Assembly: GCA_913055205.1 (NCBI GenBank)
Contig: CAJXJN010000001.1
Location: forward strand, 1-64,000
Origin: an uncultured Sulfurovum sp.
GTDB lineage: Bacteria; Campylobacterota; Campylobacteria; Campylobacterales; Sulfurovaceae
Direction: 5' to 3'
Length of the DNA: 64,000 bases
Shown: piece after piece, positions 26,044 through 48,974 of the stretch
Position numbering within the stretch: the stretch's first letter is position 1
Layout of the letters: each line of letters opens with the position of its first letter
Notes under the pieces: generated by a model
What the model was told of the DNA's origin: nothing
The model's database searches: none
The model's input: only the letters and a program-made list of their open reading frames with translations
Program-made: the position numbers and the translations under genes

Positions 26044-26172
26044 CTATATTTTACTGATATCTACGAGATAATGAAACTCTTTGGAAGATTTGAGTTTAGT
26101 GATCGTTCTGGATGTTAATGATCTTTTCCCCTCTTTTTTGATGACTTGTTTGAGTATTCGGCTTATTTTCAT
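26044..26172 (-). CDS. Possible small basic protein, 42 residues
   Basis: A 43-codon frame starts at an ATG preceded by AAAAAGGAGCC, an excellent ribosome site with about 6 nt spacing. The product begins MKISRILKQVIKKEGKRSLT and has about a dozen lysines and arginines with few acids. No homologue is recognised. It fills an otherwise empty gap between ybaB and the ankyrin gene, and is divergent from the latter. Confidence 0.4.
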   Translation of the reverse strand: MKISRILKQVIKKEGKRSLTSRTITKLKSSKEFHYLVDISKI

Positions 26173-26271
26173 CTTGGCTCCTTTTTTATAAATTTATTCC
26201 GAAGAACGATCGAAGTGTAAACTAAAGATATTACATGTTAATAACAAGCTTTTTTATTTAAAGGAGAAGCA

Positions 26272-26803: not shown

Positions 26804-26835
26804 AAGCTTGGTACAAGACCAACTGTTCCAAGCTT
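26804..26835 (+). terminator. Hairpin after the ankyrin gene
   Basis: AAGCTTGG (26804-26811) can pair with CCAAGCTT (26828-26835), an 8-bp perfect stem right after the stop codon. No T-run follows; the heptamer repeat begins at the hairpin edge. Confidence 0.5.
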
Positions 26836-26876
26836 TACTACTTACTACTTACTACTTACTACTTACTACTTACTAC
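26835..26876. repeat. Six tandem copies of the heptamer TTACTAC
   Basis: Six perfect copies of a 7-bp unit lie between the ankyrin gene and the porin Pho box. A perfect simple repeat is prone to slippage. It is 26 bp upstream of the Pho box, so copy number could alter porin expression. Confidence 0.9.
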
Positions 26877-26901
26877 TTCCTATATAAACAATATCTAATT
26901 C

Positions 26902-26934
26902 TGTAACCATTTTGTAACCCTTTTCTTTTATACT
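26902..26934 (+). promoter_or_regulatory. Pho box and promoter of the porin gene
   Basis: TGTAACC at 26902-26908 and 26913-26919 are direct repeats spaced 11 bp start to start. TATACT (26929-26934) follows after 9 nt, the geometry of PhoB-type activation replacing the -35 box. Confidence 0.75.
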
Positions 26935-26965
26935 TTCGCCATCAAAATAAAACAAGGAAGAAAAA

Positions 26966-28165
26966 ATGAAAAAAATCCTACTCTCAACTGTGGCTGTAGC
27001 AACATTGGCAACAGCTGCGACTGCAAGTACAAGTTCAGAGCTTGCAACACTTAAAGCACAAATGGCAGCAATGATGAAAAAGATAGATTCATTAGAGGCA
27101 AAACAGGCTAAGGCAGAAAAACAGGCTAATAAAAAGCAAGTAGTTGAAGTTGCCTCTGTTTCTCCGAAAGGAACTTTGGTTAAATCTAAAGTACCAGTAC
27201 TTAAGTTTTCCGGTAAACATTATCTTGGTTTCGTAAGTTCAAAAGCAGAGGGATCAGATAGAGAAAATGCATTTGAGACTAGAAGAAACTACCTTCAAGT
27301 GAAAGGATATTTTGCTGAAGATGCAAAAGATTACTTTAGAATCACACTTGATACTTTCCATAATGATGGTGACGATGGTGAGGATGAAGGAAGTTGGGAA
27401 GTAAGACTTAAGTATGCATATCTTTACTTAGATAATATTCTTCCATATACTGGTGTAGAGATCGGTCAGGCACACAGACCTTGGATCGATAACGAAGAGC
27501 ATGGTGGATGGAATTACCGTTCTATCTCTAAAGTTTTTGTTGAAGCGAGCAATGGTGCACACTTGACAAACTCTGCTGACCTTGGTGTAAACTTTAAAAC
27601 AAAAACTGAGTACTTCTCATCGGAACTTGGTCTCTTTAACGGTGAAGGCTACCATGGTGTAGAAGAGGGTGATGGTTTAAGTGCTGAGTGGAGACTTACC
27701 GGACATATACTTGGCGGAGGTACACATAAAGCGAAAAAGAAAAATACCTATGCTAACGTTTCATTTTTCGGTCAATGGAATGATACAAGCAATAAACATG
27801 GTGATGAAGACTTAAACTGGTATGGAGTTCATGCTGTATATAATCAGCCAGAGTTCCTTTTTGCCGGGCAATATGTAGAAACAGTAGATGCTGCTGATAC
27901 GCTTGGTGGTACGAACTATGCAGGTAAAGGATACTCATTCAATGGTGAATTTAGATTTGCAAAAGATTGGAACCTTATCGGTAGATATGATAATTTTGAA
28001 AAAGATAATTCATACTTTGGTGAGCAAACAACAACTATTGCCGGTGTGACATACAAATACAACAAAAGTGTAGAATTCATAGCCAACTACCTTGGTGAAG
28101 GAAACCTTAAAGATACTGGTGTAGATTCAGATGCTCTAATGTTAACTGCAGAAGTGAACTGGTAA
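26966..28165 (+). CDS. Outer-membrane porin, probably phosphate-selective type
   Basis: The 399-residue protein has a signal peptide (MKKILLSTVAVATLATAATA), then a coiled-coil segment (LATLKAQMAAMMKKIDSLEA), then a beta-barrel-like region ending in a C-terminal tryptophan (LTAEVNW). The arrangement resembles OprP/OprO-type phosphate and polyphosphate porins, which also carry a periplasmic coiled coil. It has its own Pho box and precedes the PiT transporter gene, supporting phosphate uptake across the outer membrane. Substrate is inferred from regulation. Confidence 0.85.
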   Translation: MKKILLSTVAVATLATAATASTSSELATLKAQMAAMMKKIDSLEAKQAKAEKQANKKQVVEVASVSPKGTLVKSKVPVLKFSGKHYLGFVSSKAEGSDRENAFETRRNYLQVKGYFAEDAKDYFRITLDTFHNDGDDGEDEGSWEVRLKYAYLYLDNILPYTGVEIGQAHRPWIDNEEHGGWNYRSISKVFVEASNGAHLTNSADLGVNFKTKTEYFSSELGLFNGEGYHGVEEGDGLSAEWRLTGHILGGGTHKAKKKNTYANVSFFGQWNDTSNKHGDEDLNWYGVHAVYNQPEFLFAGQYVETVDAADTLGGTNYAGKGYSFNGEFRFAKDWNLIGRYDNFEKDNSYFGEQTTTIAGVTYKYNKSVEFIANYLGEGNLKDTGVDSDALMLTAEVNW

Positions 28166-28194
28166 TTAACGTCTAAAATTTTATGTAAACTCCT

Positions 28195-28228
28195 AAAGAT
28201 GGGCATTACAGCCCATCTTTCTTCTTTC
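28195..28228 (+). terminator. Rho-independent terminator after the porin gene
   Basis: A 10-bp perfect stem AAAGATGGGC/GCCCATCTTT with loop ATTACA is followed by a T/C-rich run. Confidence 0.8.
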
Positions 28229-28257
28229 TCCTCCTTACTTTTACTATCAAAATAATT

Positions 28258-28302
28258 TAGTTACAATTTGGTAACAAAAATGTAATACTTTTTTTTTATA
28301 CT
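28258..28302 (+). promoter_or_regulatory. Pho box (three repeats) and promoter of the PiT gene
   Basis: TAGTTAC, TGGTAAC and ATGTAAT start at 28258, 28269 and 28280, an exact 11-bp period. TATACT lies at 28297-28302, 10 nt after the last repeat. Confidence 0.7.
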
Positions 28303-28328
28303 TCGTAAATTTTTTTCAAGGATAAAGA

Positions 28329-29870
28329 ATGAACAACACATTTAAGATGATACTGGGTGCAGGTTTTGCTGTAGCTGTGGCTTTTTATGCAAATGGCATC
28401 ATAGGGCAGGCAACACATGGAGGATTTCTAGTCCTTGCAGCCGTATTTGGTGCCTATATGGCGATGAATATAGGGGCAAATGATGTGGCGAACAACGTAG
28501 GACCTGCTGTAGGTTCCGGTGCATTGACCATAGGCGGGGCTATTGTGATCGCTTCTATTTTTGAAGCTTCCGGAGCACTTATTGCCGGTGGTGATGTTGT
28601 GGGAACGATCAAAAAAGGGATCATTGATCCTTCTGCATTTGGCGGTGATCCGATGCTTTTTGTCTATGCTATGTCCGCAGCGCTTCTTTCTGCAGCACTT
28701 TGGTTGAACCTTGCCACATGGCTTAAGGCACCTGTCTCTACAACACACTCTATTGTCGGTGGTGTACTTGGCGGTGGTATCGCTGCGGGTGGTTTTGCCA
28801 TTGTCTCCTGGGGGACGATGGGTAAGATCGCAGCTTCATGGGTGATCTCTCCGGTACTTGGCGGTGTGATCGCTGCAATATTCCTTTATGTGATAAAGTC
28901 TCAGATCCTTTACAAAGAAGATAAACTTGCAGCTGCAAAGAAGATCGTACCTATTCTTGTTTCCTTGATGGCAGCAGCATTTATTACCTATCTGACAGTA
29001 AAGGGACTTAAAAAAGTATGGCCTGTGATCGTAGATACATTGAGCTTTCTGCCGCAAACTAAAAAACCTACTTTTATAGTAGCTCTACTCTTTGGTTTGA
29101 TCGGTGCGATGATTACTTTTGTTGTTGTAAAGCCCAAAATTTCTAAAAAAATAATGGGTATGGAAAACTCTAGAGAAGCGCTTAATATTCTTTTTACGAT
29201 ACCACTTATTTTTGCAGCAGCATTGTTAAGTTTTGCACATGGTGCAAACGATGTTGCCAATGCTGTAGGACCTTTGGCTGCAGTAAATGATGCACTGACT
29301 CACCTTACTGTTGCTAAAAAAGCTGCTATTCCATTGTGGGTCATGGTTGTTGGTGGTGTGGGTATCTCTATTGGTTTGGCACTTTTTGGTCCAAGACTTA
29401 TCAGAACTGTAGGGTCAGAGATCACTGAGCTTGATCAGATGAGAGCCTTTTCCATTATGATGGCTGCAGCGATCACTGTGGTTATCGCTTCACAGCTTGG
29501 ATTGCCTGTTTCATCTACGCATATTGCTGTTGGAGCTATCTTTGGTGTTGGATTCCTTAGAGAGTGGTTGGACAGTAAAGCAATGGGAGAGAAGCAACAA
29601 AAGCTTAAAATAGAAGTAGATAAGCATACTAAACTCAAACAAGAGTTGTCAGAGCTGAAAACTGAAGAGGACTATAAGAGACAAGTTGAGTTGATGGAGT
29701 CTTTGAAAATACAAAAGAAAAAGGTAAAAAGTCTTAAAAGATCATTACGTGAGAACTATGTGAAGCGTGGAATGGTGAAAAAAATTGTTGCGGCATGGGT
29801 TATTACCGTACCTGCTGCGGCTGTACTTTCTGCGATCATTTTCTTTGTACTTAAAGGTTTTGCTGCATAA
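28329..29870 (+). CDS. Inorganic phosphate transporter, PiT family
   Basis: The 513-residue inner-membrane protein has the two PiT signature halves, AMNIGANDVANNVGPAVGSG and AHGANDVANAVGPLAA, each in a hydrophobic repeat. A long charged cytoplasmic segment (residues about 420-475, lysine/glutamate-rich coiled coil) precedes the last helix. PiT carriers move phosphate with a proton or sodium gradient. Usually PiT is constitutive; here it is preceded by a Pho box, so it is probably starvation-induced. Confidence 0.95.
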   Translation: MNNTFKMILGAGFAVAVAFYANGIIGQATHGGFLVLAAVFGAYMAMNIGANDVANNVGPAVGSGALTIGGAIVIASIFEASGALIAGGDVVGTIKKGIIDPSAFGGDPMLFVYAMSAALLSAALWLNLATWLKAPVSTTHSIVGGVLGGGIAAGGFAIVSWGTMGKIAASWVISPVLGGVIAAIFLYVIKSQILYKEDKLAAAKKIVPILVSLMAAAFITYLTVKGLKKVWPVIVDTLSFLPQTKKPTFIVALLFGLIGAMITFVVVKPKISKKIMGMENSREALNILFTIPLIFAAALLSFAHGANDVANAVGPLAAVNDALTHLTVAKKAAIPLWVMVVGGVGISIGLALFGPRLIRTVGSEITELDQMRAFSIMMAAAITVVIASQLGLPVSSTHIAVGAIFGVGFLREWLDSKAMGEKQQKLKIEVDKHTKLKQELSELKTEEDYKRQVELMESLKIQKKKVKSLKRSLRENYVKRGMVKKIVAAWVITVPAAAVLSAIIFFVLKGFAA

Positions 29871-29894
29871 TATTAGCTTTATAGTATGTTTGCA

Positions 29895-29910
29895 TGGGCA
29901 TTGCTGCCCA
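29895..29910 (+). terminator. Hairpin after the PiT gene
   Basis: TGGGCA/TGCCCA stem with loop TTGC, 25 nt after the stop. There is no strong T-run. Confidence 0.45.
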
Positions 29911-29957
29911 CCTTGAAATTTCTACTCAATACTCCTCATTCTTTATATCACCCAAAT

Positions 29958-30120
29958 CTCAAAATAGAAAAAAACATTGGCAACAACCATGATATTCATG
30001 GACATCGGGAAAAACCATCATCGAACCTGCGGGTACAACTTAAATTTTTCTCAAAGCCCATAAACACAAGCGTTGTCAATACTGTAAATTTCTATTTCGG
30101 GATTTGGAATGTAATCAAAA
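29958..30120 (+). pseudogene. Possible remnant of a calcineurin-like phosphoesterase
   Basis: One frame reads NNHDIHGHREKP and then INTSVVNTVNFYFGIWNVIK. This resembles the end of calcineurin-like phosphoesterases, which have a GHxH-type motif followed by an IN(V)SVE-NFYP-like C-terminus. No start, ribosome site or N-terminal metal motifs are present. The evidence is short and suggestive only. The regulator promoter starts at its end. Confidence 0.3.
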
Positions 30121-30145
30121 TGTTATCAATAAATATTACTATAGT
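30110..30145 (+). promoter_or_regulatory. Pho box and promoter of the interrupted regulator
   Basis: TGTAATC (30110-30116) and TGTTATC (30121-30127) are spaced 11 bp. TACTAT (30137-30142) or TATAGT (30140-30145) serves as -10. The ATG at 30149 follows within a few bases, so the mRNA would be leaderless. Confidence 0.6.
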
Positions 30146-30148
30146 ACT

Positions 30149-30832
30149 ATGGAAAATAAAAATATAGAAATTGTAATTATCGAAGATGAAGAAGATATTT
30201 TAGAGTTAGTTGAATATCATCTTTCTAAAGAAGGATATGAAGTCTCAGGCTTCCTCTCCATAGAGAATGTAGAGTAGTTCTTAGAAGAAGAGAACCCTTC
30301 CCTTATGATAGTGGATCGTAACCTTCCTGGTGTAGAAGGGAGTGAGTTTATTGCCTATTTAAGAGAGCAGGGTTATAAGATCCCTGTTATCTTCCTTACA
30401 GCAAGAGATAAAGACAGTGACCTGGAAGAGGGCTTCAACAGAGGTGCTGATGACTATATGACAAAACCTTTTAAGCCTAAAGAGTTACTGCTTCGTGTAT
30501 CAGCGCTCCTCAGAAGAAGCGGTGTCCAGGCAAGTGATAAAGTAAAACACCGTGATATAGTACTCGATATGCATCAGCATATTCTAAGCATAGAAGGCAA
30601 ACCTATAGAACTTACCAATCTGGAGTTCAGACTGCTATATACTTTCATCAAAAACCCTCATCAAGCTCTTGACAGAGATTTTTTAAGAGATGAGGTGTGG
30701 GGTGATGACAGTGTAGATTTTCATGACAAGACCATCAATGTGGCGATGAACCGTCTCAAAAAGAAGATAGATCCAAGCGGAGAGAAGGAGTATATTGCTC
30801 CTGTGTGGGGTATTGGATATAAGTTAGTTTAA
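30149..30832 (+). pseudogene. PhoB-like response regulator with an in-frame stop
   Basis: The frame from the ATG at 30149 reads like the intact regulator at 36023 but has TAG at 30275-30277 (codon 43), where the paralogue has CAG for glutamine. After the stop it continues as DRNLPG (phospho-acceptor region), a TKPFKPKELLLRV segment and an OmpR-type DNA-binding domain (TNLEFRLLYTFIKNP ... VWGIGYKLV). Restart at 30305 would lack the acidic pocket residues in IIEDEED. A single C-to-T change explains the stop. Function is doubtful unless the stop is read through or wrong. Confidence 0.85.
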
Positions 30833-31180
30833 TTTTTTCTTCTTCAATCTGGTAGGTGAATACTGTACAGCAAGTATCCTAAAGATGAAAAATATAAAAA
30901 TAACAAAGAGTAAAAAGAGTATATCCTCATAAGGCTTTTTGGGAAGTGCTGTTAAGATGATGACATCTCTGGTTAAAAAGATGATGAAAACATCCAGGAC
31001 ATAACGTAAGCGCAATCTTTTCTTTTCTATAAATTCTGCCACCATTTTTACCACTTCAATGATAACAATAAACTCCAAAAGTAGAATAATCGCCTTATAG
31101 AATGGATAATGTGTGAGTAGGATAGTGATAAATATCACCGAAGCCAGGAGTAGTTCGTAATTTTTCTTGATTAAATTCAT
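30824..31180 (-). CDS. psiE: PsiE-like phosphate-starvation membrane protein
   Basis: The protein has 118 residues from the ATG at 31180 (MNLIKKNYELLLASVIFITI); a longer start at 31219 would lie in the Pho box region. Four hydrophobic segments and the central EVVKMVAEFIEKKRLRLRYV region fit the PsiE family, whose function is unknown beyond starvation induction. It overlaps the end of the interrupted regulator tail to tail by 9 nt. A minus-strand Pho box (31218-31201) precedes it. Confidence 0.75.
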   Translation of the reverse strand: MNLIKKNYELLLASVIFITILLTHYPFYKAIILLLEFIVIIEVVKMVAEFIEKKRLRLRYVLDVFIIFLTRDVIILTALPKKPYEDILFLLFVIFIFFIFRILAVQYSPTRLKKKKLN

Positions 31181-31185
31181 GTGAA

Positions 31186-31218
31186 ATTTTATCTTCAATC
31201 TGTAACAAGTTGATAACA
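31186..31218 (-). promoter_or_regulatory. Pho box and promoter of psiE
   Basis: On the minus strand TGTTATC and TGTTACA (31218-31201) are spaced 11 bp, and TAAAAT (31191-31186) lies 9 nt further on. This is the mirror arrangement of the pstS Pho box, six bases away. Confidence 0.65.
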
Positions 31219-31224
31219 CTTTCT

Positions 31225-31257
31225 TGTAACCAAAATGTTTCCAAGTTGTCCTATACT
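31225..31257 (+). promoter_or_regulatory. Pho box and promoter of pstS
   Basis: TGTAACC (31225-31231) and TGTTTCC (31236-31242) are spaced 11 bp, with a partial third repeat TGTCC at 31247. TATACT is at 31252-31257. The predicted start near 31264 gives a leader of about 265 nt before pstS. Confidence 0.75.
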
Positions 31258-31280
31258 TTCGAAATCCAAAAGGAATGATA

Positions 31281-31465
31281 GGGGCTCTAGTACCCTTCCC
31301 ACTAAGGCAAACTCATTTCACCCTACGGGCGATAAGAAAAAGGCACATCTATGGCGTTAGATTTTTTTGAATTAGCTACGGCTAGTCCTGTAAAAATCTG
31401 CCTTGTACCTGTACCTTTTTCTTATCGTTAAAATAGTGTGTACTTAATGGGAGGGGTACTAGTGT
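31281..31465 (+). ncRNA. Long structured leader RNA upstream of pstS
   Basis: Nested complementarity defines a rod. The outer stem is CTAGTACCC-TCCCA (31288-31302) with TGGGAGGGGTACTAG (31448-31462). The inner stem is CGATAAGAAAAAGG (31330-31343) with CCTTTTTCTTATCG (31414-31427). Further in are AGATTTTT (31359-31366) with AAAAATCT (31392-31399) and an apical stem ATTAGC/GCTAGT closed by a UACG tetraloop (31371-31386). Unpaired stretches separate outer and inner stems, an outline like 6S RNA. No coding frame fits. It could be a regulatory leader or a processed small RNA. Confidence 0.5.
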
Positions 31466-31529
31466 TGCAAAGTTGACTCAAAGAGTAAACTTTCATACAC
31501 CTGACCTCAAACAATACAAAGGAAAACAA

Positions 31530-32531
31530 ATGACATTGAAAAAGATTATCACTGCAGCTGTTGCAGCATCTGTTGCTTTGACTGCTGTAAATGCAGATGA
31601 ACTTAAAGGTAGAGGTGCATCTTTCCCCGGTCCGGTTTATAAAGCTTGGACAGCTGAGTATTTCGCAGCTACAGGTAAAAAAGTGAACTATACGCCAACA
31701 GGTTCCGGTGATGGTATCAAGTCTATTAAAAAAAGAATGGTAGATTTTGCCGGTTCAGACAAACCGCTTAAGCCAAAAAAACTAAGAGATGCTAAACTTT
31801 ATATGTTTCCTTCAGTAGTAGGATCCATTGTCCTTGCCTATAATATTGATGGTGTAAAAGACGGTGAACTCAAGCTTTCACGTGCAGCGATCGATGCGAT
31901 CTTTACAGGAAAAGCAAGTTTCTGGGATGATGCTGTGATCACTAAAGAGAATGCCGGTCTTAAACTTCCGCATGAGCCTATTACCGTAGCAGTAAGAGCA
32001 GACAAATCCGGTACAACATTCAACTTTACATACTTTTTAAATAAGATCAATCCAGAGTTCAAAGTAAGCAAAAAACCAACCTGGAAAGTATCTAAAGTGG
32101 TTGCAGGTAAATCAAACTCAGGTGTATCGGCAAATATCCAGCAGATCAAAAACTCTATTGGTTACATTGAGTACTCATATAAAATTAAATTAGGCCTTCC
32201 GGCAGCACAGGTAGAGAACAAAGAGGGTAAATTCATTAACCCGACAGTTTCATCATTCCAGGATGCAGCGAAGTATGCGACTTGGACTCCAGAGAATGAC
32301 TTCTATGCAGTGATCGGTGACCCGGCAGGTGCTACATCGTACCCTATCGTAGCGGCAACATTCATCCTTCTTCCTGAAGAGAAAGCTGAGACAAACAAAC
32401 AAGTAACAGCATTTATAGACTGGGCATATACAAATGGTGACAAAGCAGCAGCAGAACTTGGTTATGTTCCACTTCCTGCATCAACTAAAGATGAGATCAG
32501 AAAATATTGGGAAGCAAAGGGTATTAAATAA
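31530..32531 (+). CDS. pstS: Phosphate ABC transporter, periplasmic phosphate-binding protein
   Basis: The protein has 333 residues from the ATG at 31530, chosen for the AAAGGAAAA ribosome site and the signal peptide (MTLKKIITAAVAASVALTAV). Phosphate-binding motifs are visible in GRGASFPGPVYKAW, GSGDGIKSI, DFAGSDKPL and RADKSGTTFNFTYFL. It delivers phosphate to PstCAB. It has its own Pho promoter and the long structured leader. Confidence 0.96.
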   Translation: MTLKKIITAAVAASVALTAVNADELKGRGASFPGPVYKAWTAEYFAATGKKVNYTPTGSGDGIKSIKKRMVDFAGSDKPLKPKKLRDAKLYMFPSVVGSIVLAYNIDGVKDGELKLSRAAIDAIFTGKASFWDDAVITKENAGLKLPHEPITVAVRADKSGTTFNFTYFLNKINPEFKVSKKPTWKVSKVVAGKSNSGVSANIQQIKNSIGYIEYSYKIKLGLPAAQVENKEGKFINPTVSSFQDAAKYATWTPENDFYAVIGDPAGATSYPIVAATFILLPEEKAETNKQVTAFIDWAYTNGDKAAAELGYVPLPASTKDEIRKYWEAKGIK

Positions 32532-32542
32532 GCTGGCTTACT

Positions 32543-32577
32543 TCTAACGCAACCAGTTGCGTGAGCCTGCTGCTGAA
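32543..32577 (+). terminator. Hairpin between pstS and pstC
   Basis: ACGCAAC/GTTGCGT around a CA loop, flanked by complementary GGCT/AGCC, forms a stable hairpin just after pstS. It has no T-run and may attenuate read-through or protect the pstS mRNA. A GGAGC-TTT-GCTTC hairpin follows at 32649-32661. Confidence 0.5.
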
Positions 32578-32678
32578 GTAAACTCAGTGTTAACAATCAA
32601 AATTTGATAAAGGTGCTAAAATGCACGTTTATAAATTTTGACACTACTGGAGCTTTGCTTCATGCGCGTCCTAATGAT

Positions 32679-32721
32679 GGTTATCAAAATGTTACCAATT
32701 TGTAATAAAATCGCGTAATTT
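32679..32721 (+). promoter_or_regulatory. Pho box (three repeats) and promoter of pstC
   Basis: GGTTATC, TGTTACC and TGTAATA begin at 32679, 32690 and 32701, an exact 11-bp period. TAATTT (32716-32721) is a weak -10 at the same spacing as in the other boxes. So pstCAB-phoU has its own starvation promoter. Confidence 0.65.
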
Positions 32722-32737: not shown

Positions 32738-33595
32738 ATGATGGGTGGAAAACTTTTTAGAAACTTCTCCTTTTTTTCAGCAACACTTTCCTTTTTTCTT
32801 CTTGTAGGTATCTTTGCGATACTCTTTACTTATGCACAAGAATCGATGCATGAGTTTGGATTTGACTTCCTTTTCAATGGGACTTGGGAGGCAGATGAAG
32901 ATGATGAAGGTGGGATTTTTGGTGGGTTTATCCCCATCATTGGTACACTGTTAAGTACGATTATCGCAATGGTCATTGCAACACCGTTGGCAATGGGAAT
33001 TGCTATCTTTCTTACTGAGATCGCTTCAGAAGCTATTGCAAAACCTGTCTCAATCGCAATTGAACTACTTGCTGCTATTCCAAGTATCATTTATGGGATG
33101 TGGGGGCTTTTTTATTTTGCTCCTATTGTTCAATCCACAGTTGGAGGGAACGGTGTTGGATTACTGACAGCAGGTATCGTGCTTGCGATCATGATCATTC
33201 CTTTTATGGCAGCCATTACAAGAGATTCGATGAATACGACACCGTTGGTACTTAAAGAGTCTGCATATGCTATGGGTGCTACCAAGTTTGAAGTGATCAA
33301 AGATGTGATTATGCCTTACTCCAAAGGTGGGATCATCGGTTCTATTATTTTGGCACTTGGGAGGGCTTTGGGTGAGACGATGGCAGTAGCATTCCTTATA
33401 GGTTCTGTGATGAGTATTCCTCGTAATATCACAGATCCTACGACTTCTATCCCGGTACTTTTGGCAAACAACTTTGCTGAAGCACAAGATTTGGAGATGA
33501 GTAGTATGTACTACTTGGCACTGATCCTTTTTGTAGTAAGTTTCTTTATTATTACCATAGCAAAATTCTATTTTCTTGGCAGAAAAGTAAAGTAA
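32738..33595 (+). CDS. pstC: Phosphate ABC transporter permease PstC
   Basis: The 285-residue permease has six hydrophobic segments and the EAA loop region ESAYAMGATKFEVIKDVIMP. It forms the inner-membrane channel with PstA. The start is ATGATG; 32741 is an alternative. It is 10 nt before pstA. Confidence 0.95.
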   Translation: MMGGKLFRNFSFFSATLSFFLLVGIFAILFTYAQESMHEFGFDFLFNGTWEADEDDEGGIFGGFIPIIGTLLSTIIAMVIATPLAMGIAIFLTEIASEAIAKPVSIAIELLAAIPSIIYGMWGLFYFAPIVQSTVGGNGVGLLTAGIVLAIMIIPFMAAITRDSMNTTPLVLKESAYAMGATKFEVIKDVIMPYSKGGIIGSIILALGRALGETMAVAFLIGSVMSIPRNITDPTTSIPVLLANNFAEAQDLEMSSMYYLALILFVVSFFIITIAKFYFLGRKVK

Positions 33596-33605
33596 GGGGC
33601 AGTTT

Positions 33606-34415
33606 ATGAATAGATTATTACTCAATAAAATTATACTTATTCTCTCAACGCTCTCCGCAGTGATTGGGATCGGTTTTCTTTTTTGGATACTTGCGACACT
33701 CAGCTATAAAGGCATTACAAGCATCCACTGGAGTACATTTACCCATGACCTTGTAAAAGGTGGAATAAGAAACCTGTTGGTCGGGCAGTTTACCATGGCT
33801 ATCTTGGCAAGTGCATTGGCTGTACCTGTAGGGATGATGGCAGGTATCTATCTCAGAGAGTATGGACATGGCAGCAAGTTAGCCTCTGTGATACGAAACC
33901 TCAGTGATGTGATGATGTCAGCGCCTTCCATCGTCATCGGCGTCTTTGTGTTTGCATTGCTGGTTGATCCTTTTGGCGGCTACAATGGTTATGCAGGTAT
34001 CGTGGCACTCTCTATCATGATGATACCTATTATCATCTCAACGACTGACAATATGTTGGCACTCGTACCTAAGGAGTTAAGAGAAGCAGGGATCGCGCTT
34101 GGTGGGAGTAAACATAAAATTATCTTGCAGATCGTTGTGAAGGCAGCCAAAGTGGGTATTACCACGGGTGTGCTGCTTTCGTTTGCAAGGATTATCGGTG
34201 AAACGGCTCCGCTGCTCTTTACGTCAGCCAATAACCAGTTCTTTACGATGGACTTGACAGGGCAGTTCCCTTCACTCACCGTAAGTATCTATAACCTTGC
34301 AACGTACCCGGATGAGGCAAGCAGGGAGTTGGCTTGGGCGGCTTCATTTATATTGACAATGATCGTACTGTGTATTAACCTTATCGGTCGATATGCAATA
34401 AGAAATAAAAAGTAA
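33606..34415 (+). CDS. pstA: Phosphate ABC transporter permease PstA
   Basis: The 269-residue permease has six hydrophobic segments and the EAA loop REAGIALGGSKHKIILQIVV, and AGIYLREYGHGSKLAS near helix 2, typical of PstA. It lies 9 nt before pstB. Confidence 0.95.
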   Translation: MNRLLLNKIILILSTLSAVIGIGFLFWILATLSYKGITSIHWSTFTHDLVKGGIRNLLVGQFTMAILASALAVPVGMMAGIYLREYGHGSKLASVIRNLSDVMMSAPSIVIGVFVFALLVDPFGGYNGYAGIVALSIMMIPIIISTTDNMLALVPKELREAGIALGGSKHKIILQIVVKAAKVGITTGVLLSFARIIGETAPLLFTSANNQFFTMDLTGQFPSLTVSIYNLATYPDEASRELAWAASFILTMIVLCINLIGRYAIRNKK

Positions 34416-34424
34416 GGACGTAGT

Positions 34425-35216
34425 ATGGCAAAAGAGAACTTGGTAATGGAGATCAAAGATTTTTCATTTACGTATGCGGGTGCAGAGAAGCCTTCATTGA
34501 AAAAGATCAATCTTCCTATTGAAGAAAATAAAATTACTGCGATGATAGGTCCAAGCGGCTGTGGTAAATCCACGCTGCTTAGAGCAATGAACCGCATACA
34601 TGACCTTTACCCGGGAAATAAGTATGAAGGAAAGATCAACCTCTATAAAGCAGATGGGAGTAAGCAAAATATCTTAGACATCAAAAAAGAGAATGACTTC
34701 ATCAAACTTCGTCAGGAAGTAGGAATGATCTTTCAAAAGCCTACTCCTTTTCCTATGAGCATTTTTGATAATGTTGCTTATGGACTTAGACTTTCAGGTA
34801 TTAAAAACAGGAGTGAATTGGAAGGACGTGTAGAAAAGGCACTTAAAGGGGCTGCCATTTTGGATGAGACCAAAGACAGACTCAAAGAGAGTGCACTGGG
34901 TATGAGCGGCGGGCAGCAGCAGCGTCTCTGTATCGCCAGAGCAGTTGCACTAAAGCCAAGAGTCCTGCTTTTTGATGAACCAACTTCTGCACTGGATCCC
35001 TTCTCTACCGGAGCCATAGAAGAGCTTATTGCTGAACTCAAAGAAGAGGTGTCAGTAGTCATCGTAACACACAATATGCAACAGGCAAGCCGTTTAAGTG
35101 ACTATACTGCATTTATGTACCTGGGTGACCTGGCGGAGTATGATAAAACAGAGAAGATCTTCCTCAACCCGACACAAAAGTTGACAGAAGATTATATAAC
35201 AGGTAGATTTGGATAG
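34425..35216 (+). CDS. pstB: Phosphate ABC transporter ATP-binding protein PstB
   Basis: The 263-residue ATPase has Walker [10 protein letters not shown], signature [17 protein letters not shown], Walker [13 protein letters not shown], and the PstB-specific [16 protein letters not shown]-loop segment. It powers PstCA. Confidence 0.97.
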
Positions 35217-35320: not shown

Positions 35321-35986
35321 ATGTTAACAAAATATCAAGAAGCAAGACACGAGGTAAGAGCAGCTGTACTGGAAGTAGTACAACACCTGGCAGAGGCAAA
35401 TACTGAGGCATTAAAAGCACTTGAATCATCGGATGCAAAGCAACTGGAAGAAGTCAGAAAGACACTTAAGAATGTAAGTAAAGCTACAGAAAAGATAGAC
35501 AACGACATCGTGCTGATCTTTGCTCGTTATACACCAGAGGCAAAAGACTTAAGAGAGATGGTCTCGTATTTGAAGATCACTTCAGCATTGAATCGTATCA
35601 AGACAAATATTAGTAACTACCTGAAAAATATGCAAAGCATGCTTGCAGAAGAGGATGTAAATATCATTCAATTCATTAAAGAATCACTCAGTATCAATCG
35701 TTGTACCATTAATGCATTTGAAAAAACATTAGAAATGTTTAAAACATTTGATGATAACGATAAAATAAAACAACTTGCCATAGAGATAGATGTCGAGTAT
35801 GCCAAAACGGATGATATTTATGCACTGCTTGAAAAGAGTGCCGTGCAAAAGATGGGTGAGGCAGATGGTAAAGCGGAGGAGTATTTCAACCTGCTGAAGT
35901 ACATCCGTAAAAATCTTAAGATCATAGACAGATTGGATAGTATCGCTCAAAGAATCATCTTTTCCCGGATAGGTGGAAAACTTTAA
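35321..35986 (+). CDS. phoU: PhoU-like phosphate regulatory protein
   Basis: The 221-residue all-helical protein has the PhoU-type pairing of helices (RYTPEAKDLREMVSYLKITS followed by LNRIKTNISNY). PhoU links Pst transport to the PhoR-type kinase and keeps the regulon off in high phosphate. It follows pstB at 104 nt, with the repeat element between. Confidence 0.85.
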   Translation: MLTKYQEARHEVRAAVLEVVQHLAEANTEALKALESSDAKQLEEVRKTLKNVSKATEKIDNDIVLIFARYTPEAKDLREMVSYLKITSALNRIKTNISNYLKNMQSMLAEEDVNIIQFIKESLSINRCTINAFEKTLEMFKTFDDNDKIKQLAIEIDVEYAKTDDIYALLEKSAVQKMGEADGKAEEYFNLLKYIRKNLKIIDRLDSIAQRIIFSRIGGKL

Positions 35987-36010
35987 CTGGTGCGGTAATG
36001 TAGTGTATGC

Positions 36011-36023
36011 TATAATATATGCA
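36011..36023 (+). promoter_or_regulatory. Promoter giving a leaderless regulator mRNA
   Basis: A perfect TATAAT (36011-36016) ends 6 nt before the ATG at 36023, so transcription would begin at or next to the start codon. No ribosome site precedes the ATG. Confidence 0.55.
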
Positions 36024-36709
36024 TGCAAAAAGAGAATATAGAGATCGTCATTATTGAAGATGAAGAGGATATTTTAGAACTTATAGAGTACCATCTTTCC
36101 AAAGAGGGTTATGCTGTGACAGGTTTCCTCTCTACTGAAAATGTGGAACAGTTTCTGGAAGAGGAGAGTCCCTCTTTACTGCTTCTAGACCGGAATCTTC
36201 CCGGCATGGAGGGAAGCGAATTCGTCTCTTCCCTCCGAAAGACAGGTTATGATATTCCGGTGATCTTTCTAACGGCCAAAGATCAGGAATCTGACCTTGA
36301 ATCGGGGTTTGAAGCAGGTGCTGATGACTATATGACAAAACCTTTCAGCCCCAAAGAGTTGACACTCCGGGTCAAAGCCCTTTTGAAACGTTCCGGTGCC
36401 CTGCAGAAACAGTCACGTCTCAAGTACAAGTCTCTTACGATGGATCTGCTGAAAAAAGATCTGTATGTTGACGGACAGGCAGTTTCACTTACAAATCTTG
36501 AATTCAATCTGCTTTATACTTTTATGAAATACATAGACAAGCCTCTGACAAGAGATTTTCTTCGTGATGAGGTATGGGGATCCGATGGTGACGGAGTGAA
36601 TGACAATGCGGTTAATGTAGCTATAAACCGGCTTAAGAATAAAATAGACCCGGAAAATGAACAAAACTATTTTCATCCTGTCTGGGGTGTCGGATATAAA
36701 TTCAGTTAG
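36023..36709 (+). CDS. PhoB-like response regulator, OmpR family
   Basis: The 228-residue regulator has a receiver domain (IIEDEED acidic pocket, phospho-acceptor in LLLDRNLPG, lysine in TKPFSPKEL) and an OmpR/PhoB winged helix (TNLEFNLLYTFMKYIDKP ... VWGVGYKFS). It is the intact paralogue of the interrupted gene at 30149. No PhoR-type kinase is in the window. It most likely binds the 11-bp-phased TGTnAYC boxes. It is 8 nt upstream of ppk2. Confidence 0.93.
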   Translation: MQKENIEIVIIEDEEDILELIEYHLSKEGYAVTGFLSTENVEQFLEEESPSLLLLDRNLPGMEGSEFVSSLRKTGYDIPVIFLTAKDQESDLESGFEAGADDYMTKPFSPKELTLRVKALLKRSGALQKQSRLKYKSLTMDLLKKDLYVDGQAVSLTNLEFNLLYTFMKYIDKPLTRDFLRDEVWGSDGDGVNDNAVNVAINRLKNKIDPENEQNYFHPVWGVGYKFS

Positions 36710-48779: not shown

Positions 48780-48854
48780 TGGTGACCCCTAGGAGACTCG
48801 AACTCCTGTAACATGGATGAAAACCATGGATCCTAACCGCTAGACGAAGGGGCC
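48780..48854 (-). tRNA. tRNA-Glu (TTC), copy 1
   Basis: On the minus strand the 75-nt gene has acceptor GGCCCCT/AGGGGTC, anticodon stem CATGG/CCATG with loop TTTTCAT (anticodon TTC) and encoded CCA. It is identical to the copy at 48900 and downstream of it on the same strand. Confidence 0.95.
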
Positions 48855-48899: not shown

Positions 48900-48974
48900 T
48901 GGTGACCCCTAGGAGACTCGAACTCCTGTAACATGGATGAAAACCATGGATCCTAACCGCTAGACGAAGGGGCC
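48900..48974 (-). tRNA. tRNA-Glu (TTC), copy 2
   Basis: Identical in all 75 nt to the copy at 48780, at a 120-bp interval. This upstream copy carries the promoter (TATAAT, minus strand 49000-48995), and the pair is probably co-transcribed. Confidence 0.95.

Follow-up and report, generated by a model that had tools for sequence, protein, structure and literature searches.

The 64,000-nucleotide stretch of DNA analysed here (the window; contig CAJXJN010000001.1, positions 1 to 64,000) belongs to an uncultured Sulfurovum sp. whose genome assembly (GCA_913055205.1) comprises 1.66 Mb in 47 contigs and is 86% complete. It holds a phosphate island with the order small open reading frame (ORF; minus strand), ankyrin ORF, porin, PiT, RR2, psiE (minus strand), pstS, pstC, pstA, pstB, phoU, RR1 and ppk2, where RR1 denotes the PhoB-like response regulator at 36023 and RR2 the broken one at 30149. 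Among named records, the nearest relatives of its PstS come from Sulfurovum, Campylobacterales or Campylobacterota. Promoters of the island carry 11-bp-phased direct repeats that have the layout of PHO boxes, and we propose that they serve a phosphate regulon with one constitutive and one autoregulated PhoB-like regulator. The boxes, their -10 elements and the two regulator genes are as follows.

26229-26246, minus strand: Pho box of the small ORF (TGTTATTAACATGTAATA); -10 TACACT at 26214-26219
26902-26919, plus strand: porin Pho box; -10 TATACT at 26929-26934
28259-28287, plus strand: PiT operator, three KGTWAYA half-sites in 11-bp phase; -10 TATACT at 28297-28302
30110-30127, plus strand: RR2 Pho box; -10 TACTAT at 30137-30142, six nucleotides from the ATG
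30149-30832, plus strand: RR2, PhoB-like response regulator, with a TAG at 30275-30277 (codon 43)
31201-31218, minus strand: psiE Pho box; -10 TAAAAT at 31186-31191, with five nucleotides between -10 and ATG
31225-31242, plus strand: pstS Pho box; -10 TATACT at 31252-31257
32679-32707, plus strand: pstC Pho box, three repeats (the first two at 32679-32696); -10 TAAAAT at 32706-32711
36004-36709, plus strand: RR1, intact PhoB-like response regulator (36023-36709), with an extended -10 (TGCTATAAT) six nucleotides from the ATG and without a Pho box

A first-pass annotation, made earlier from the sequence alone, had listed such repeats, and all of them were found, with a half-site period of 11 bp at every one. 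The -10 spacing that it described was likewise borne out, at 9 nt past the second heptamer (16 nt past the second TGT) at each listed site. It counted five promoter regions; six are actually in its list, and it overlooked a seventh, that of the small ORF. In its consensus, TGTnAYC, position 4 needs correcting from n to W, and at PiT the last letter of the half-sites is A (KGTWAYA) rather than C. The full motif reads TGTWAYC-N4-TGTWWYC-N9-TATAMT. In relatives, position 4 is A in 42 boxes, T in 31, and C or G in none (n = 73), a count in which C was not strictly excluded since the search pattern had W there and allowed one mismatch overall.

The PHO box is outlined in PMC4415409 as two direct 11-nt repeats, each of seven conserved and four less conserved positions. 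The boxes described here have this architecture, and they lie 5' of phosphate-uptake genes with constant spacing to a -10; the E. coli-type CTGTCAT core with C at position 4 is not found in them. As judged from sequence, this lineage has a variant of the known PHO box, of that class by layout and not of the E. coli type by sequence.

Scoring used a matrix derived from relatives only, with 73 distinct boxes as the training set (overlapping registers and inverted PiT boxes among them); the window was excluded as a guard against circularity. The top eight 18-bp scores of the window (27.7 to 15.9) all fall on reported sites. One of 40 shuffles reached 21.9 with this matrix, so the weaker sites hold only when the -10 is included. 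With a 33-bp matrix covering box and -10, eight sites lie above 16.4, the highest value reached in 40 dinucleotide shuffles, whose maxima average 8.6; the small-ORF box is the ninth site and, at 16.2, falls slightly below that value, and its -10 spacing is not independent evidence because the -10 is built into the matrix. The -10 was absent from the search pattern behind a separate offset count, in which TANNNT lies precisely 16 nt past the second TGT in 54 of the relatives' 73 boxes (runner-up offset, 17 of 73). Such a fixed distance is the geometry expected where a box takes over from the -35. Across six near-complete genomes of the genus, the strict pattern KGTWAYCAAWWTGTWWYC gave 16 matches, against none for the reversed control; PiT, RR2, pstS and pstC account for 15 of these matches. 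Upstream of pstS, 53 of 76 loci score at least 15 and 75 at least 7.9, compared with at most 4.6 for controls within pstS; the count covers 76 of 80 named loci, four with less than 400 bp of upstream sequence being omitted, and several of the loci come from genomes that also trained the matrix. The pstS upstream at locus L296 has no box.

The two regulators of the window share 65% identity and fall into two groups of the tree, the RR1 branch having support of 100/99. RR2, described as broken in the first-pass annotation, has its frame cut by a single TAG; the matching RR2 sequences of relatives have no stop, and the window copy alone is interrupted. The branch is short (0.10), so the stop does not resemble decay. 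Provided that the sequence is correct, RR1 alone would run the regulon of this genome. The earlier interpretation held up in that the motif marks phosphate genes and serves the lineage. Its naming of the protein at 36023 as the regulator left the picture incomplete: in relatives, it is RR2 that belongs to the pst island, often between PiT and pstS, and that has a box of its own in front. All 31 distinct RR2 upstream sequences, counting that of the window, contain a box (30 scoring at least 15 and one 13.1), and none of 32 RR1 upstreams does. In 23 of these 32 the RR1 upstream carries an extended -10 (TGnTAnnWT) ending 5-7 nt from the ATG, and the RR2 -10 ends 5-7 nt from the ATG in all 16 rows examined. 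With transcription generally starting 6-8 nt past a -10, leaderless mRNAs are predicted for both regulators. The psiE promoter of the window is laid out in the same way, with its -10 5 nt from the ATG.

RR1 and the piece of RR2 after the stop both contain Response_reg and Trans_reg_C domains above the Pfam cut-offs, and the best solved-structure matches of the RR2 effector domain are 3t72, 1qqi and 1gxp. Residues were compared with PhoB through the structure-match alignment for RR2, to which RR1 was aligned by eye. Both paralogues keep Arg201 and Val197 of PhoB and have Lys203 (PhoB numbering), and both have Asn, Ala and Asn in place of Asp196, His198 and Arg200. At position 194, RR2 retains the Thr of PhoB and RR1 has Ala. 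According to PMC3973317, Arg201 of PhoB makes a guanine contact and residue 194 a thymine contact. It is suggestive only, but the altered recognition helix may pair with the shift of box position 4 from the C of E. coli to A/T. A third, remoter PhoB-like regulator (49% identity to RR1) occurs at L155:8920-9573 and L156:11189-11845, with a box-like site upstream in genomes G003 and G027.

At the PiT operator, the box proper occupies 28270-28287 and is preceded by an extra half-site, AGTTACA, at 28259. On the minus strand, the site can also be read as an inverted box. An inverted box serving a divergent gene was considered and dropped, because the porin neighbour is co-oriented and the upstream arm is absent in several genomes; for the same reasons we read the site as containing a third direct half-site. 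The operator, GGTAACAAAATTGTAATACTTTT-N4-TATAMT, is near-invariant across 19 sequences. It is present in 19 of 21 genomes with RR1 and in none of four without it (Fisher p 0.0012, kinship ignored), and by eye in G008 and G033 as well. As an observation in its own right, the operator is conserved far above the other boxes and is nearly palindromic.

Genomes that have only RR2 keep boxes at RR2, pstS and pstC. Six genomes (G007, G008, G014, G019, G022 and G036) have RR1, no RR2 and no PstS match; all six keep the PiT operator, and further boxes were found at the porin (G022) and at the small ORF (G014, G022), the porin upstream of G036 having none at up to two mismatches. The idea that RR2 alone reads the boxes is weakened by these retained sites. 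From this distribution RR1 can plausibly read boxes; since the RR1-only, pst-less genomes keep so few of them, its role across the genus is probably not that of principal reader.

The boxes also draw attention to two small proteins.

26044-26172, minus strand: small ORF of 42 amino acids, basic, with a Shine-Dalgarno-like AAGGAG, divergent from the ankyrin ORF

Of 37 genomes of the same genus, 28 have this ORF conserved, as against none of 23 outside the genus; it had no match in a Pfam search and is probably unannotated. In 21 of 24 loci a box-like site lies 27-60 nt 5' of the ATG, with two sites farther off and one locus without any; the count covers 24 of the 28 loci, four whose starts were not located being left out. 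A second small ORF, acidic and 67-79 amino acids long, lies near phoU or pstS of relatives and has its own box in several genomes (L221:3165-3365; L154, L157, L158, L159); it is absent from the window.

The remaining genes of the island, and a repeat within it, are listed below.

26966-28165, plus strand: porin-like protein
28329-29870, plus strand: PiT-type phosphate permease (PF01384)
30824-31180, minus strand: PsiE family protein (PF06146), with its start taken as the internal ATG at 31180
31278-31470, plus strand: palindromic repeat of about 190 bp in the pstS leader, with a 22-bp terminal inverted repeat (31285-31306 / 31443-31464)
31530-32531, plus strand: PstS
32738-35216, plus strand: pstC, pstA and pstB, pstC assigned through its Pfam transporter domain, pstA and pstB by sequence and position
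35321-35986, plus strand: PhoU

The porin-like protein, which adjoins PiT in relatives too, had no match in Pfam or NCBIfam, and its label is therefore that of the first-pass annotation only. Immediately 5' of its promoter, at 26835-26880, lies a TACTTACTACT-like tandem repeat. In the pstS leader the palindromic repeat separates box and gene: the start of the box is 305 bp from the ATG, compared with 58-132 bp in relatives with a pstS box, and none of the relatives examined has an insertion at this place. Its RNA fold has a predicted energy of -80.1 kcal/mol (z -6.4). A 6S RNA or other Rfam family before pstS was rejected, as no family matched, two microRNA models far under the cut-off were discarded, and the element is repeated. 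Its core is shared by 22 of 60 genomes, with 13 copies in G016 (L301-L313) that have about 300 bp in common and terminal inverted repeats of their own; the core is thus common to many dispersed copies in the genus whose terminal repeats differ (for example L017, L018 and G016). The insertion is a dispersed repeat resembling a miniature inverted-repeat transposable element. Elsewhere in the window, two tRNA genes on the minus strand (48783-48854 and 48903-48974), 120 bp apart, have an equal Rfam score and an identical printed sequence.

Our proposal is that these repeats act as PHO boxes in a phosphate regulon of the Campylobacterota (Sulfurovum). Under phosphate shortage, a phosphorylated PhoB-type dimer would bind head to tail on two, at times three, half-sites TGTWAYC-N4 at an 11-bp pitch; the second half-site would span the -35 region, and RNA polymerase would be set on the -10 that starts 16 nt past the second TGT. 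RR1 would be made constitutively from its box-less, leaderless promoter with an extended -10, and RR2 from a leaderless promoter governed by the RR2 box, which would let it amplify itself. RR1 may be tied to the PiT operator with its A-ending half-sites and be able to sustain C-ending boxes alone, and the boxes of pstS, pstC and RR2 may, across the genus, be read mainly by RR2. We give this scheme, a PHO-box regulon with a constitutive RR1 and an autoregulated RR2, a probability of about 0.72. More tentatively, and with somewhat less than even confidence, it can be extended to two tiers, formed by a pair of PhoB-like paralogues that lack a kinase and are made from leaderless mRNAs. RR1 would act constitutively on PiT, through the near-invariant operator, and on a few boxes; a self-amplifying RR2 would drive pst; and the lineage would have kept one, the other or both. 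The genome of the window would then be a natural loss of the amplifier with all boxes kept, and the regulon would include two small proteins of no known family (42 and about 69 amino acids).

Several observations weigh against the proposed scheme. No sensor kinase gene lies beside a regulator in the island; the genome has 16 HisKA matches, all of them elsewhere, and the only one on the window's own contig is at 18466 in the window. Both regulators miss the cut-off of the NCBIfam PhoB equivalog TIGR02154 (296.2 bits; RR1 scores 185.9 and the post-stop piece of RR2 143.2), PhoB being nonetheless the top-ranked NCBIfam family for each. Two RR1 carriers break the association with the PiT operator, G001 having a weak one and G009 none, and the association as computed carries no correction for kinship. 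Few genomes are RR1-only, and of these six, two are less than 90% complete. Finally, the stop in RR2 may be an assembly error.

That boxes of this kind arise by chance in AT-rich intergenic DNA is very nearly excluded. Matches to the loose TGTnAYC consensus are indeed common, 34 at up to two mismatches against 17.6 expected, and the genome scan suggested by the first-pass annotation, run at up to one mismatch with a pattern wider than the strict one, gave 15 matches against eight for the reversed motif; nine lie in the island, and the other six fall inside ORFs. With so many stray matches, the loose consensus was rejected as a genome scanner. At the six listed promoters, chance is rejected by the strict motif, the relatives-only matrix, the constant -10 offset and the recurrence of the boxes at orthologous positions. 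A different possibility is that the boxes are real and the RR2 stop is an error of metagenome assembly, the genome then having a normal two-regulator system. A single TAG in an otherwise conserved gene, on a short branch, with box and -10 intact and stop-free counterparts in relatives, is what such an error would look like; the assembly shows no sign of one, and this genome is represented by one sequence. We take this possibility seriously and hold it a little less probable than its opposite.

A plain one-regulator system of the PhoB/PhosR kind would have one paralogue reading all boxes and the other controlling something else, the PiT operator differing by descent only. Several boxes each in the RR2-only genomes G030, G034, G035, G006 and G026 agree with this, and Asn196, Ala198, Asn200, Arg201 and Lys203 are common to RR1 and RR2, so that a split in specificity is not forced. 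However, RR1-only genomes retain boxes at PiT, the porin and the small ORF, the PiT operator tracks RR1 (19/21 vs 0/4), and the paralogues differ at the position of the thymine contact, Ala in RR1 and Thr in RR2. We consider a single reader possible, on the doubtful side, and prefer the scheme with a constitutive RR1 and an autoregulated RR2.

The motif offers a lineage-wide handle on phosphate control in uncultured sulfur-oxidising Campylobacterota, and its boxes point to small proteins that annotation would overlook. Genomes with RR1 only, RR2 only or both form a natural comparison for the purpose of positive feedback in the phosphate response. A literature search, which left subscription journals mostly outside its reach, found nothing on phosphate control in Sulfurovum/Campylobacterota or on paralogous PhoB pairs.

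As in the E. coli PhoB/PHO box system, the boxes are 11-nt direct repeats with a TGT core that stand in place of the -35; pst and psiE are among the predicted targets, the effector domain is of the PhoB type, and a box precedes a regulator gene (RR2). In contrast to E. coli, with its CTGTCAT repeats and C at position 4, that position is A or T in 73 of 73 boxes; Asp196, His198, Arg200 and the wing Arg219 of PhoB are replaced; and there are two paralogues, no adjoining PhoR and predicted leaderless regulator mRNAs. Campylobacter jejuni, with its PhosS/PhosR system, belongs to the same phylum, and its PhosR box is the nearest known case. The PhosR gene has an adjoining sensor gene, the pair being called an operon in the title of a 2006 study, whereas the island here has none; the PhosR box is GTTTCnnAAnnGTTTC, likewise 11-bp phased, with AA in the middle. 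The pst genes of C. jejuni are described as being under the PhoB-like regulator PhosR (PMC3197622). RR2, preceded by its own box, resembles the positively autoregulated phoB of E. coli as presented in PMC6194859; unlike there, it is accompanied by a paralogue, RR1, that lacks a box and is served by an extended -10 promoter of its own. This proposed pairing of a constitutive with an autoregulated regulator is the interesting part of the system.

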